This document shows positions 61,253 through 63,890 of a stretch of DNA of 64,000 bases, piece after piece. The stretch is from Herbiconiux sp. SALV-R1. GTDB taxonomy: Bacteria > Actinomycetota > Actinomycetes > Actinomycetales > Microbacteriaceae. A program made the translations under genes and the position numbers. Where the stretch lies: assembly GCF_013113715.1 (NCBI RefSeq), contig NZ_CP053344.1:310001-374000 (forward strand), in the 5' to 3' direction. The notes beneath the pieces were generated by a model that worked only from the letters and a program-made list of their open reading frames with translations, did not search any database and was not told the origin of the DNA. How positions within the stretch are numbered: position 1 is the first letter of the stretch; each line of letters starts with the position of its first letter.

Positions 61253-61328
61253 GCCGGCCTGGCGCAATTGGTAGCGCACCGCTCTTGTAAAGCGGGGGTT
61301 ACGGGTTCGAGTCCCGTGGCCGGCCCCA
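61253..61328 (+). tRNA. tRNA-Thr (TGT anticodon)
   Basis: Acceptor GCCGGCC pairs with GGCCGGC, D arm TGGCGCAATTGGTAGCGCA, anticodon loop CTTGTAA and T arm ACGGGTTCGAGTCCCGT. The tRNA body ends at 61325 and CCA is encoded at 61326-61328. Its 3' 21 bases recur at 63384-63404. Confidence 0.96.
61302..61322 (+). other. attL-like repeat in tRNA-Thr 3' end
   Basis: These 21 bases, covering the T arm and the start of the 3' acceptor strand, are repeated exactly at 63384-63404. Integration into the 3' end of a tRNA gene leaves this pattern. Confidence 0.5.
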
Positions 61329-61355
61329 TTCACGAGCTGATCTCGCGCAGCACCC

Positions 61356-61544
61356 ATGCCCATCTCGCGCGGTGACCGCGAGCACATCGCGCGCGCCGGC
61401 ACCACGGGCGTATCGACCGGCACTCACATGGCCGCACGCGGCGCCCCGTTCGGCTCGGCCTCCGCATCGGGAAGCAACGCCGCCCCTATCATCCCGGAGG
61501 AAGACATGGCCATCACCGAGGACGAGTTCGCCCGGCAGCACTGA
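61356..61544 (+). CDS. Possible small protein (62 aa or 12 aa)
   Basis: An open frame of 62 codons ends IPEEDMAITEDEFARQH. An internal ATG at 61506 has a perfect GGAGGA 4-5 nt upstream and would give a 12-residue peptide. GC content matches the chromosome, unlike the genes that follow. No family is recognised. It may be a remnant or a genuine small protein; I am not confident that it is expressed. Confidence 0.25.
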   Translation: MPISRGDREHIARAGTTGVSTGTHMAARGAPFGSASASGSNAAPIIPEEDMAITEDEFARQH

Positions 61545-61548
61545 GACG

Positions 61549-62057
61549 TCAGGCAGGTGTGTATTGGTAGGTCGCGGTGAAGACATCGGAGGTCGTTTCG
61601 ATGGTGTCGCCGATCAGTGTTGCAGTCACAAAGATGTGCCGGACCCGGTGGTGTGCGCCGTGAGCGAGTACACCACAGAGGGAAGCAATCCTCCGCTTGC
61701 AACGGTGCCCGACCAGTTCATGATGAGTGTGCGGGTGGCGTACGTGTAGCTCACGGATGACCATCCTGCAGCTGAGGACGAGCCGCTCACGCCAGCGCCG
61801 CCGGGCTCGCCGGCGATGATGAGGCGCAGCGATCCGGTGAAGTCTCGGCCGGTGTTGTTCTGCACGTTGATCAGGACGCCGCCGAGCTGAGGAATGGCGC
61901 CCGGGATCTGGCTGACGAGGTCACCGGACGTGGGCACCCATAGGAGCCCGAAGCTCCCGGTAGAGGCTGCGGCTGCGGGGGCTGCTGCCGCGATCGCTAC
62001 GACCGGCGTGGCCCAGATACCCGCCCGGAGCACGCTTCGTCTCTGTACTTCGTTCAC
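61549..62057 (-). pseudogene. Tat-exported small protein, frameshifted
   Basis: The open frame from the GTG at 62057 gives 143 residues beginning NEVQRRSVLRAGIWATP, a twin-arginine signal ending AAPAAAAS near residue 32. It stops at 61626 just before a second frame that continues as FVTATLIGDTIETTSD and ends TYQYTPA (stop at 61549). That ending matches the C-terminus of the paralogue at 63501 (FTASVFISGTTITTT, YPYTF). One base appears lost or gained near 61630-61640. Either the gene is broken or the sequence has an error; intact length would be about 168 residues. Confidence 0.65.
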
Positions 62058-62243
62058 GCGAGGAGCTTGTCACCGGCGGACGGGTGAAGCTATCCCCCTT
62101 TCGGTGGACTAGCGCTCCATTCAAATCATTGTCATCCTGTTGTCGCAGAATGGGGCTGGCCACACCAGGCTTCCACACGGCTCCAGCGGCCTCGGTCGTC
62201 CTCCTCGACGGCCGGGGCCGTCTTCTCTGCGAGGGGGGCGCTG

Positions 62244-62693
62244 ATGGCTGAGGTATCGAGACGGTCTGTCGTGACTGCGGGAGTGTGGGCTGTTCCTGTT
62301 GTCGCGGTGGCCGTGGCTGCGTCGGCTGCGGCCGCGAGTGGTGCGGTTGCGCTCGAGGTCAGCCTCGAGGTGCGTCCGCTCACCGACATCAGGGTGGTGA
62401 TTGTGCCGGTCACAGTGACTAACCCGTCGGCGGCTCCCGCGACGGTCACCTTGGTGCCGGCAATGAGCGGTGACAGTTTGCGCTTAGGTAGCATCCTGGG
62501 GACGACGTGGGTGCGTGTGGGAGAGCACATTTATCAGGCGGTCGTAGGCCCAGGTCAGTCTCTGGCGGGTGTCGTGTATGCCGTGCAGATCAGTGGTTCC
62601 TACTCGGCTCCGCTTCATCCTTACGTTCTCACGCTCACAGCGTCAGCGCCGGAACTCACATCCGGCATCGCGAGCCATTCGGGCACAGTCTGA
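62244..62693 (+). CDS. Tat-exported small protein, paralogue 2
   Basis: This 149-residue protein starts AEVSRRSVVTAGVWAVPVV, a twin-arginine signal nearly identical to its neighbours', with predicted cleavage after SAAAAS. The mature part of about 115 residues alternates hydrophobic and polar residues like an immunoglobulin-type beta sandwich (VVIVPVTVTNPSAAPATVTL). There is no lipobox, anchor or catalytic motif. GGGGGG is just upstream of the ATG. GC content is lower than the rest of the window. Confidence 0.75.
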   Translation: MAEVSRRSVVTAGVWAVPVVAVAVAASAAAASGAVALEVSLEVRPLTDIRVVIVPVTVTNPSAAPATVTLVPAMSGDSLRLGSILGTTWVRVGEHIYQAVVGPGQSLAGVVYAVQISGSYSAPLHPYVLTLTASAPELTSGIASHSGTV

Positions 62694-62838
62694 ACCCTCT
62701 GGGTCACTGCTCGGTGCCCAGGTGATCGCGCGGTACTGCGAATCCGCACAACGAGCGCACCCGCGGTGGTCGGTCGTCGGCGCTCGTGGCAGCCCAACCA
62801 TCGGCTTCGCGATCGATCACCATCCACTATTCGGTGGA

Positions 62839-62868
62839 TTGACAATCTAGGCAATTCCCTGGCACACT
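62839..62868 (+). promoter_or_regulatory. Promoter of paralogue 3 (leaderless)
   Basis: A consensus TTGACA (62839-62844) and CACACT (62863-62868) are 18 bp apart, and the ATG at 62875 follows six bases later without a ribosome binding site. Nothing else is seen in 62694-62838. Confidence 0.55.
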
Positions 62869-62874
62869 TCACGC

Positions 62875-63333
62875 ATGAGCGAAGTGACGCGTCGTGGAGT
62901 CCTCCGGGCCGGAGTGTGGGGTGTGCCGGTGGTGGCCGTGGCTGTCGCCGCGCCCGCAGCTGCGGCCAGTGATCAGCCCCGCGTGGTCATGTGGTGGTCG
63001 CCTGTGGCCATCACGATCGGCAGAGCGGAAGCGAGACTCAACTTCATCAACGACAGCCTCGTGGATGTGAACCGGCTCACTGTGATGATCTCCGGTCTCA
63101 CGGCTGGACTGAACCTCTCGTGGTCAGGCAACGACTGGCAGCTCGTCGCTTACGACCCTGCCGCAGGCACAGTGGTCTTTGCGAAGGTGGACCCACTGCC
63201 GCCGAGCGAGGCCGCAACTCTGTTTCTGACCTTCTCCTCGGAACAGTTGCCGCCGGGGACCTACTCGCTTCCCACCACTGTCTTATCTGGTGCGACCGCC
63301 TTTCCTGACGAGCTTGTGGTCAGGGCGGTCTAA
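62875..63333 (+). CDS. Tat-exported small protein, paralogue 3
   Basis: This 152-residue protein opens SEVTRRGVLRAGVWGVPVV with the same Tat signal (Ser-x-Arg-Arg, long Ala/Val core, APAAAAS). The mature domain differs strongly from the others in sequence but keeps the size and beta-strand pattern (RLTVMISGLTAGLNLSW). No function is recognised. A clear promoter places transcription at the start codon. It lies between tRNA-Thr and the 3' tRNA copy. Confidence 0.75.
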   Translation: MSEVTRRGVLRAGVWGVPVVAVAVAAPAAAASDQPRVVMWWSPVAITIGRAEARLNFINDSLVDVNRLTVMISGLTAGLNLSWSGNDWQLVAYDPAAGTVVFAKVDPLPPSEAATLFLTFSSEQLPPGTYSLPTTVLSGATAFPDELVVRAV

Positions 63334-63383
63334 GTTCGGCACAAGGTACGTGGGGTTGTCCTAGGGCGCGGGGACCTCATCTG

Positions 63384-63404
63384 CGGGTTCGAGTCCCGTG
63401 GCCG
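63384..63404 (+). other. attR-like copy of tRNA-Thr 3' end
   Basis: Exact 21-base copy of 61302-61322 followed by ACCC where the tRNA has GCCC. The sequence upstream (63334-63383) does not fold into a tRNA, so this is a 3' fragment, not a gene. Confidence 0.5.
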
Positions 63405-63500
63405 ACCCTCTCGTCGTCCCGCCCTCGCCCCCCTCTTGCCCCCGCGCTCTCCATCGACAGGGGGATGTCCGGTCGAGGTGCGCCGTGCGACACTTGTCGA

Positions 63501-63890
63501 ATGAGTGAGACGTCGAGGCGGTCTGTGCTTCAGGCCGGTGTCTGGTCCATCCCCGCGGTCGCGCTGGCGGTGGCGGCGCCCGCGGCGGCGGCGAGCGTGG
63601 CGGCACCGACCGTCACCATCACCGGAATCGTGCCGACGGGTGTACGAGATGTGCACGAACTCTCGATCAGGGTCGACGACATTCCGCCCGGCTCCAGCCT
63701 CGTCACCGGCCGAGTCACGTGGACGCCCTCCGGCGGCAGGACCATCGGGTCGAGCATCTTCCTTCCCGACTCCTCGGGCAACGCCTCGGTCACCCTCACC
63801 GAGTTCCCGCCCGGGGTGCTCTACCTCTTCACCGCATCCGTTTTCATCTCGGGCACCACCATCACCACCACCTACCCGTACACCTTCTGA
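63501..63890 (+). CDS. Tat-exported small protein, paralogue 4
   Basis: This 129-residue protein opens SETSRRSVLQAGVWSIPAV, the same Tat signal with likely cleavage after APAAAAS, followed by about 95 residues ending ITTTYPYTF. It lies just outside the tRNA 3' repeat and has the high GC of the chromosome, so it may be the resident member from which the cassette members derive or next to which they integrated. I chose the ATG at 63501 rather than the longer frame because the Tat signal then begins at residue 1. Confidence 0.78.
   Translation: MSETSRRSVLQAGVWSIPAVALAVAAPAAAASVAAPTVTITGIVPTGVRDVHELSIRVDDIPPGSSLVTGRVTWTPSGGRTIGSSIFLPDSSGNASVTLTEFPPGVLYLFTASVFISGTTITTTYPYTF

Follow-up and report, generated by a model that had tools for sequence, protein, structure and literature searches.

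The closest described systems are those in which a tag marks many proteins for one partner. In the part of the report by Haft that is drawn on here (2006, PMC1569441), the PEP-CTERM/exosortase system (EpsH) consists of a sporadically occurring tag, present in many copies on diverse proteins with little homology, and one co-distributed membrane partner; a link to exopolysaccharide and an upstream DNA motif common to a subset are described as well. Similarly, the excerpt of PMC3237569 used here presents GlyGly-CTERM as a homology tag paired many-to-one with a distinctive protease subfamily, rhombosortase. Here, we describe a comparable arrangement in the actinobacterium Herbiconiux sp. SALV-R1. 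The subject is a stretch of 64,000 nucleotides of its genome (contig NZ_CP053344.1, positions 310,001 to 374,000; called the window), in which an array of four small genes with twin-arginine signals follows a tRNA-Thr gene, together with the genome-wide class of genes that carry the same signal, which is called the tag. A type I signal peptidase, named SPase_W, accompanies this class. N-terminal signals with a dedicated signal peptidase are known from the SipW-dependent and the NCBIfam 'alternate signal' families, and genomic islands at the 3' ends of tRNA genes are also a known kind of element. Taken as a whole, the observations are best explained, with moderate confidence, by a class of proteins with a shared sorting tag, dedicated processing by SPase_W, and exchangeable cargo.

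The tag was found by a profile search in 30 genes of the source genome (G000), 26 of which lie outside the array. When the signal of gene 3 was run against the same genome by tblastn, 32 places came up at E<=10; the best 30 were read, and the other two had E-values of 0.23 and 0.28. The signal has the form RR-x(6-7)-W-x-x-P...AS, and its two arginines, the tryptophan, the proline, and the final A-S are invariant in all 30 cases. The features of a substrate of twin-arginine translocation (Tat) are present, namely the twin arginine, a hydrophobic stretch, and an AxA-type cleavage end. The genome encodes TatC (PF00902, 6.6e-59), and its TatA and TatC genes adjoin (L139). The tag is kept by purifying selection. 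Over the 18 codons that begin at the tryptophan, four-fold silent positions agree at 0.369 among all pairs of the 30 signals, against 0.347 expected from composition, and the amino acids over these codons agree at 0.72. The silent sites are saturated, so it is selection on the amino acids that keeps the tag, and recent homogenisation or gene conversion is ruled out as the cause of the constant signal.

The mature domains are very diverse. Their median identity in global alignments is 0.27, and 3 of the 435 pairs reach at least 46%. S, N, and W are invariant in an alignment of 13 mature domains, including those of genes 1-3, and N and W in one of 15. A profile of these 15 domains found 33 places in 7 of the 16 genomes that were sampled from the genus, 15 places being the profile's own rows. 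Among the matches listed, 32 of the 33 coincide with tagged genes; none was found in the six genus genomes without tags, and three tag-bearing genomes had no match to the profile. Judged by sequence, genes 1-3 seem to be hyper-divergent representatives of one domain type, and gene 4 seems to represent another. Gene 4 scored 16.9 bits against Big_1 (cut-off 34.9), and elsewhere there were scattered single weak matches. Searches with genes 1-4 turned up no match in PHROGs and none above the cut-off in Pfam or NCBIfam. Two other tagged proteins were scanned as well, and like the four they stayed short of every curated cut-off of these two family databases; profiles of solved structures gave no relative at E<0.1. 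No membrane-like stretch was found in the last 45 residues of the 30 proteins, where the best 18-residue Kyte-Doolittle mean was at most 1.5, compared with 1.7-2.2 in eight of the signals. Two members, L006 and L030, lie a few kilobases from endolysin-like and other phage-like genes, as judged by eye (L142:5700-11825; G000:C1:2556700-2562825).

Within the genus, SPase_W and the tagged class occur together and lie close to each other. With the profile of the 30 signals as the query, the class was found in 10 of the 16 genomes, in 5-30 copies, and in none of the other six, which gave four partial chance matches at E<=10, one in each of four genomes, the best at 0.23. In the source genome, the gene of SPase_W (P0001; L138:8464-9108) stands beside three tagged genes. 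The protein is a type I signal peptidase of family S26 (PF10502, 2e-33, 116.2 bits against a cut-off of 22.9; TIGR02227, 110.9 against 47 bits), and it stays below the cut-off of the archaeal/ER-type (endoplasmic reticulum) model TIGR02228 (21.8 against 51.85 bits). It carries Ser in PSGSM and Lys in VKRV, which we take to be its Ser/Lys dyad. SPase_W is found at 72% identity or more in exactly the 10 genomes with tags; the six tag-free genomes have one relative each, 43-45% identical to SPase_W and taken as LepB. By coordinates, SPase_W lies at most 4.3 kb from a tagged gene in all ten genomes, and in none of the ten was a tagged gene found within 10 kb of LepB among the matches listed (the assembly of G009 consists of about 1,110 contigs). 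The lepB region was also used for a quick DNA tree, with Shimodaira-Hasegawa-like approximate likelihood ratio test (SH-aLRT) support only, on which the tag/SPase_W label has to change at least three times. A missing Tat pathway is ruled out as the cause of the tag-free genomes, because TatC is present in 15 of the 16 genomes and is absent only in G009, which is 88% complete.

A second TatA and TatC pair occurs near SPase_W in 6 of the 10 tag-bearing genomes (L131, L133, L134, L135, L136, and L137 in G003, G004, G012, G001, G005, and G006, respectively). The order is SPase_W-TatA-TatC in G001, G003, G004, and G012, and the pair lies about 3-6 kb from SPase_W in G005 and G006. The second TatC of the other genomes is 84-96% identical to that of G005. 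Genes were called with a retrained home-made caller, and the G005 signal peptidase comes from an earlier caller. Genes 1-3 of the window were among the genes missed or truncated, so the absence of a gene from these lists is weak evidence. Genes for a kinase-like protein with a PqqD-like end, a nucleotidyltransferase-like protein, and Wzz/ParA-type proteins recur near SPase_W (L138:6561-7463 and its neighbours, L184, L189), which makes this an exopolysaccharide-type locus. In tag-free G007, an extra TatA-TatC-TatB-like set was seen by eye beside oligopeptide-transporter-like genes (L147:6846-8145).

The pairing was followed through 199 genomes of the family, 11 of which have SPase_W and 21 of which have tags; all 11 are among the 21. 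All eight family genomes with at least eight tag copies have SPase_W, and the highest count is 40 copies in one genome. Outside the genus itself (g1), a tagged gene lies within about 7.5 kb of SPase_W in g70 and g73, and the tags read in g2, g8, g19, g33, g45, g60, g70, and g73 look alike. In the phylum, 4 of 396 genomes were positive, including the source genome. Up to 20 candidates were scored in each of these genomes, so the true extent of the class may be larger.

There are several points that weigh against dedicated processing by SPase_W. The family survey accepted SPase_W at E<=1e-36, a cut that was set after the genus result, and the tag at E<=1e-3 with at most 40 candidates scored per family genome (the phylum limit being that given above). 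The association p-values, 1.2e-4 and 9.6e-13, ignore relatedness, and co-inheritance of the whole locus could mimic the pairing of tag and SPase_W. One to five tagged genes are carried by 10 of the 188 family genomes that have no SPase_W. Seven of these ten have one S26 match only, as do nine of ten tag-free controls, so ordinary LepB probably can process the tag; the survey speaks against SPase_W being indispensable. No tagged gene stands beside SPase_W among the genes listed for the g8 and g45 stretches (five genomes). The signal peptidase tree, which separates SPase_W from the LepB of the genus, includes LepB of Herbiconiux only and has long branches. Finally, the source genome has no second TatC, though it has SPase_W and 30 tags.

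The cargo behind the tag has been replaced between two species. In the sister genome (G015), three tagged genes, arranged as in the window but with different mature domains, occupy the tRNA-Thr interval, which is bounded by a 29-bp repeat of the tRNA 3' end, and the nearby flanks are about 84-95% identical to those of the window. When genes 1-3 were compared with the G015 mature parts, only gene 1 gave a match at E<=1e-3, with 29% identity, and the mature domains of the two islands are not orthologous. The orthologue of gene 4 also lies beyond the repeat in G015. Gene 2 and its counterpart in G015, i2, are homologous from -152/-155 up to +93, where the signal ends, and not beyond. The distant paralogue L006 is a mosaic: it is 90% identical to gene 3 over -22..+97, and in the mature domain it matches gene 4 with 47% identity. 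Different tagged genes also occupy further sites with syntenic flanks (L018 and G015 3594010; L014/L017/L028 and 1028258/1027593). When the 30 members were compared with 24 of the 25 G015 members, 11 had a match at 60% identity or more, 15 had none at E<=1e-3, and 4 were between.

The array itself (Table 1) largely agrees with the original prediction, which had been made from the letters of the window. Its four Tat-signal genes after tRNA-Thr are borne out by the open reading frames. The sizes had been put at about 130-168 residues and are 129-152 here, gene 4 being read from the ATG that gives 129 residues (an upstream ATG at 63465 would give 141). The signal had been described as S-x-R-R...AGVW; R-R and W-x-x-P are present in all four proteins, but gene 1 has V-Q-R-R and A-G-I-W. 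As had been stated, genes 1-3 are bounded by the tRNA and an exact copy of its 3' end, and gene 4 lies beyond this copy. The repeated 21-mer occurs twice only in the 4.52-Mb genome, and its backwards control not at all. The lower guanine-plus-cytosine (GC) content of the interval was also confirmed, at 0.644 against 0.705 +- 0.021 in equal-length stretches taken in 50-bp steps from the window before the tRNA, none of which is that low. The lack of an integrase held for the open reading frames of at least 60 residues in the interval, which were inspected by eye; family searches covered the four tagged proteins only.

Table 1. Features of the array at tRNA-Thr (positions in the window)
Feature	Position	Strand	Remarks
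tRNA-Thr (TGT)	61253..61328	+	ARAGORN; 3' end is the likely attachment site
tRNA copy of the 21-bp repeat cgggttcgagtcccgtggccg	61302..61322	+	
Low-GC interval, tRNA to repeat	61329..63383		GC 0.644 against 0.705
Tagged gene 1	61626..62057	-	143 residues; signal with W, divergent domain with conserved N..W
Block conserved in G015 (75%)	62092..62336	+	shared upstream region and full gene 2 signal; ends at the predicted cleavage site
Palindromic box CCCCCTTTCGGTGGA	62094..62108	+	divergent upstream region of genes 1 and 2; -50 of gene 1
Tagged gene 2	62244..62693	+	149 residues
Palindromic box CCACTATTCGGTGGA	62824..62838	+	-51 of gene 3
Segment 90% identical to distant paralogue L006	62853..62971	+	-22..+97 of gene 3; ends at the predicted cleavage site
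Tagged gene 3	62875..63333	+	152 residues
Downstream 21-bp copy of the tRNA 3' end, scar like an attachment site	63384..63404	+	G015 counterpart shares 29 bp exactly
Degenerate box, 2 mismatches	63450..63464	-	-51 of gene 4
Tagged gene 4	63501..63890	+	129 residues; outside the island; orthologue i4 in G015, mature part 67% identical

The tRNA-Thr loci of relatives were located via the gene that precedes the tRNA. Exact repeats of 41 and 39 bp are present in Herbiconiux oxytropis (L036) and H. daphne (L039), and an integrase-family gene (PF00589, 3.3e-14) lies just inside the repeat in H. daphne. In L035, a transporter gene begins 130 bp after the tRNA, and the site is empty; that of L037 is probably empty too. 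L041 was not accepted as a clear empty site, since its tRNA is followed by 95 bp similar to the G015 interval and the fetched flank showed no transporter gene. The repeats, the integrase-bearing occupant, and the empty site in relatives indicate that tRNA-Thr is a used integration site, and the most fitting reading of the window interval is an old occupant in which no integrase is visible. The mobility by integration that had been predicted thus finds support in the relatives, and the comparison for empty sites and other cargo that had been suggested revealed an empty site at L035 and different cargo in G015. The same four genes are not present in the relatives' loci examined. Gene 4 has its G015 orthologue outside the island, and genes 1-3 have no orthologous counterparts in the G015 island. 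A constant export signal with a variable domain, as had been proposed, is supported. The proposed cassette at the tRNA holds for the site and for cargo turnover, but the island is only one of many sites of a 30-member class.

Two side observations concern the same site. In Herbiconiux moechotypicola, one tagged gene follows tRNA-Thr directly, on the opposite strand like gene 1 of the window, and precedes the transporter gene (L045:6950-7432). At L038:6949-7060, L040:6932-7040, and L039:8399-8530, a further piece that resembles the tRNA 3' end follows the inverted repeat ACGACGCGATGCGTCGT, about 85 bp after tRNA-Thr or its repeat, and may belong to a small repeated element.

Genes 1 and 3, L006, and two G015 members each have a palindromic box, CCMCYWTTCGGTGGA, at -50 to -52, and the G015 orthologue of gene 4 has a variant, CCACCGATCGGTGG, at -50. 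The genome contains four exact copies of the 15-bp box, none with one mismatch, and 35 with two; the backwards control gave 39 in all. Given these 35, the degenerate copy before gene 4 may be due to chance. Three of the exact copies stand at array genes or L006, and one (G000:C1:2554357-2554371) precedes an FAD-monooxygenase-like gene. With only four exact copies, one of them before an unrelated gene, the box marks a subset of the tagged genes, and a box-based regulon for all members is ruled out. A shared -10 element near the start was marginal (15/54 against 5/48, p=0.04) and was dropped.

Part of these results would also be expected from an ordinary, lineage-specific family of Tat substrates that was duplicated and diverged fast, with the second signal peptidase as a passenger of an exopolysaccharide locus unrelated to the tag. 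The tagged genes in ten genomes without SPase_W fit such a family, and so does the N..W pattern of 15 mature domains, which diverged homologues would share and whose profile matches mostly tagged genes. In g8 and g73, SPase_W does sit among Wzz/ParA-type and PqqD-type genes and sub-cut-off nucleotidyltransferase and HprK-like genes. In g45, however, it lies beside ribosomal protein genes (by eye), not in an exopolysaccharide-type locus, and three g45 genomes nevertheless have 8-20 tags. A general need for Tat leaves the invariant W-x-x-P unexplained, and an RR signal without it was seen by eye at L138:17508. Six TatC-bearing genomes lack the class and SPase_W together, with at least three changes in the tree. 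The cargo of other genera bears on both sides: of 32 tagged mature parts (one from outside the family, G295), five, from g8, g45, and g73, match L022 and thus are conserved with the tag across genera, but 27 match none of the 30 of the source genome at E<=1e-3. An ordinary family is, in our opinion, an unlikely though serious alternative. The L022-like tagged protein (L138:16738-17256; L252, L253, L259, L260, L191), which is 39-72% identical in g8, g45, and g73, is the most widely conserved cargo seen.

Two further explanations concern the array and the function of its products. The array could be a relic integrative element at tRNA-Thr with incidental tagged cargo, the genome-wide class being mere background. 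The direct repeat of the tRNA 3' end, the low GC content, the integrase of the H. daphne occupant, the empty site in L035 (probably also in L037), and the different cargo in G015 are in line with this. However, 26 of the 30 members are elsewhere, no integrase was seen by eye in the window interval or among the called open reading frames of G015 (where the caller misses genes), and the upstream-plus-signal block kept inside the island suggests piecewise replacement, not one element. For these reasons, we consider the relic improbable. It is very unlikely that the tagged proteins are small secreted toxins, decoys, or receptors directed against phages or competitors, with an arms race driving their diversity. 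The rapid turnover relative to G015, where half of the 30 mature domains have no match, would suit an arms race, as would at least two uncultivated viral contigs with a tagged gene, one of which (L291:1-2281; IMGVR_UViG_3300048923_000299) has it at the contig end beside a large serine recombinase (PF00239, PF07508). Nonetheless, no match was found for genes 1-4 in PHROGs, for L006 in phage records, or for gene 3 in plasmids.

If the class is served by a sorting tag and SPase_W, as we prefer to think, the twin-arginine signal, the W-x-x-P-V block, and the AAAS cleavage end would together act as an address. The tag would send the folded protein through Tat, and SPase_W would read it and cut between AAA and S; the second TatA/TatC near SPase_W may assist in some relatives. 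The mature domains behind the tag appear to be small, beta-type, and hyper-divergent. The tag is self-contained at the 5' end, so different mature domains can be put behind it, and recombination that breaks within or beside the signal may exchange the cargo while the site stays the same. Integration at tRNA-Thr and the gain and loss of genes would add to the turnover. The outcome would be a set of secreted proteins that changes fast and probably serves the cell surface or the exopolysaccharide matrix. More tentatively, it is possible that the tagged proteins have a private export lane with its own signal peptidase and sometimes its own TatA/TatC, and that the leader serves as a recombination handle between dispersed loci and gives rise to species-specific repertoires, in a logic like that of constant/variable gene systems. 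Such a class, missing from close relatives, would represent many-to-one sorting with an N-terminal twin-arginine tag and a signal peptidase partner. It would also be a setting for the natural exchange of secreted domains behind a fixed leader and would allow about 30 genes of this genome to be grouped under one label. Among the top matches listed from the open papers of PubMed Central (PMC), no title or abstract start dealt with this tag or pairing.

Compared with islands at tRNA 3' ends, the array is alike in its direct repeat, its low GC content, and the integrase-bearing occupant of the site in a relative; it differs in that no integrase was seen and that its cargo of tagged genes looks replaced piecewise. 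SPase_W belongs to the same family as actinobacterial LepB (TIGR02227/PF10502), but the two are about 36-46% identical and separate in the tree, and it is SPase_W that is co-located with tagged genes in the genus. The SipW-dependent and 'alternate signal' families are similar in having an N-terminal signal and their own peptidase, whereas the tag here is a twin-arginine one; the NCBIfam alternate-signal models had no match in genes 1-4 and two other tagged proteins. The 30 tagged proteins do not carry the C-terminal motif, membrane helix, and basic tail by which PEP-CTERM and GlyGly-CTERM proteins are recognised. As far as the cited parts of the reports go, PEP-CTERM shares with the present class a sporadic, many-copy tag, one partner, an exopolysaccharide link, and an upstream motif in a subset; the present class differs in its N-terminal, twin-arginine tag, in having an S26 signal peptidase as the partner and an actinobacterium as the host, and in showing no C-terminal membrane segment. 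GlyGly-CTERM, as described there, has a C-terminal tag, a rhomboid protease, and up to 13 copies, and the N-terminal tag of this study reaches up to 30 copies in the genus and 40 in one family genome. Many-to-one co-distribution of tag and protease is found here as well, although imperfectly (tags in 10 of 10 genus genomes with SPase_W and 0 of 6 without; 11 of 11 and 10 of 188 in the family). The parallel with PEP-CTERM and GlyGly-CTERM is one of logic, not of membership.

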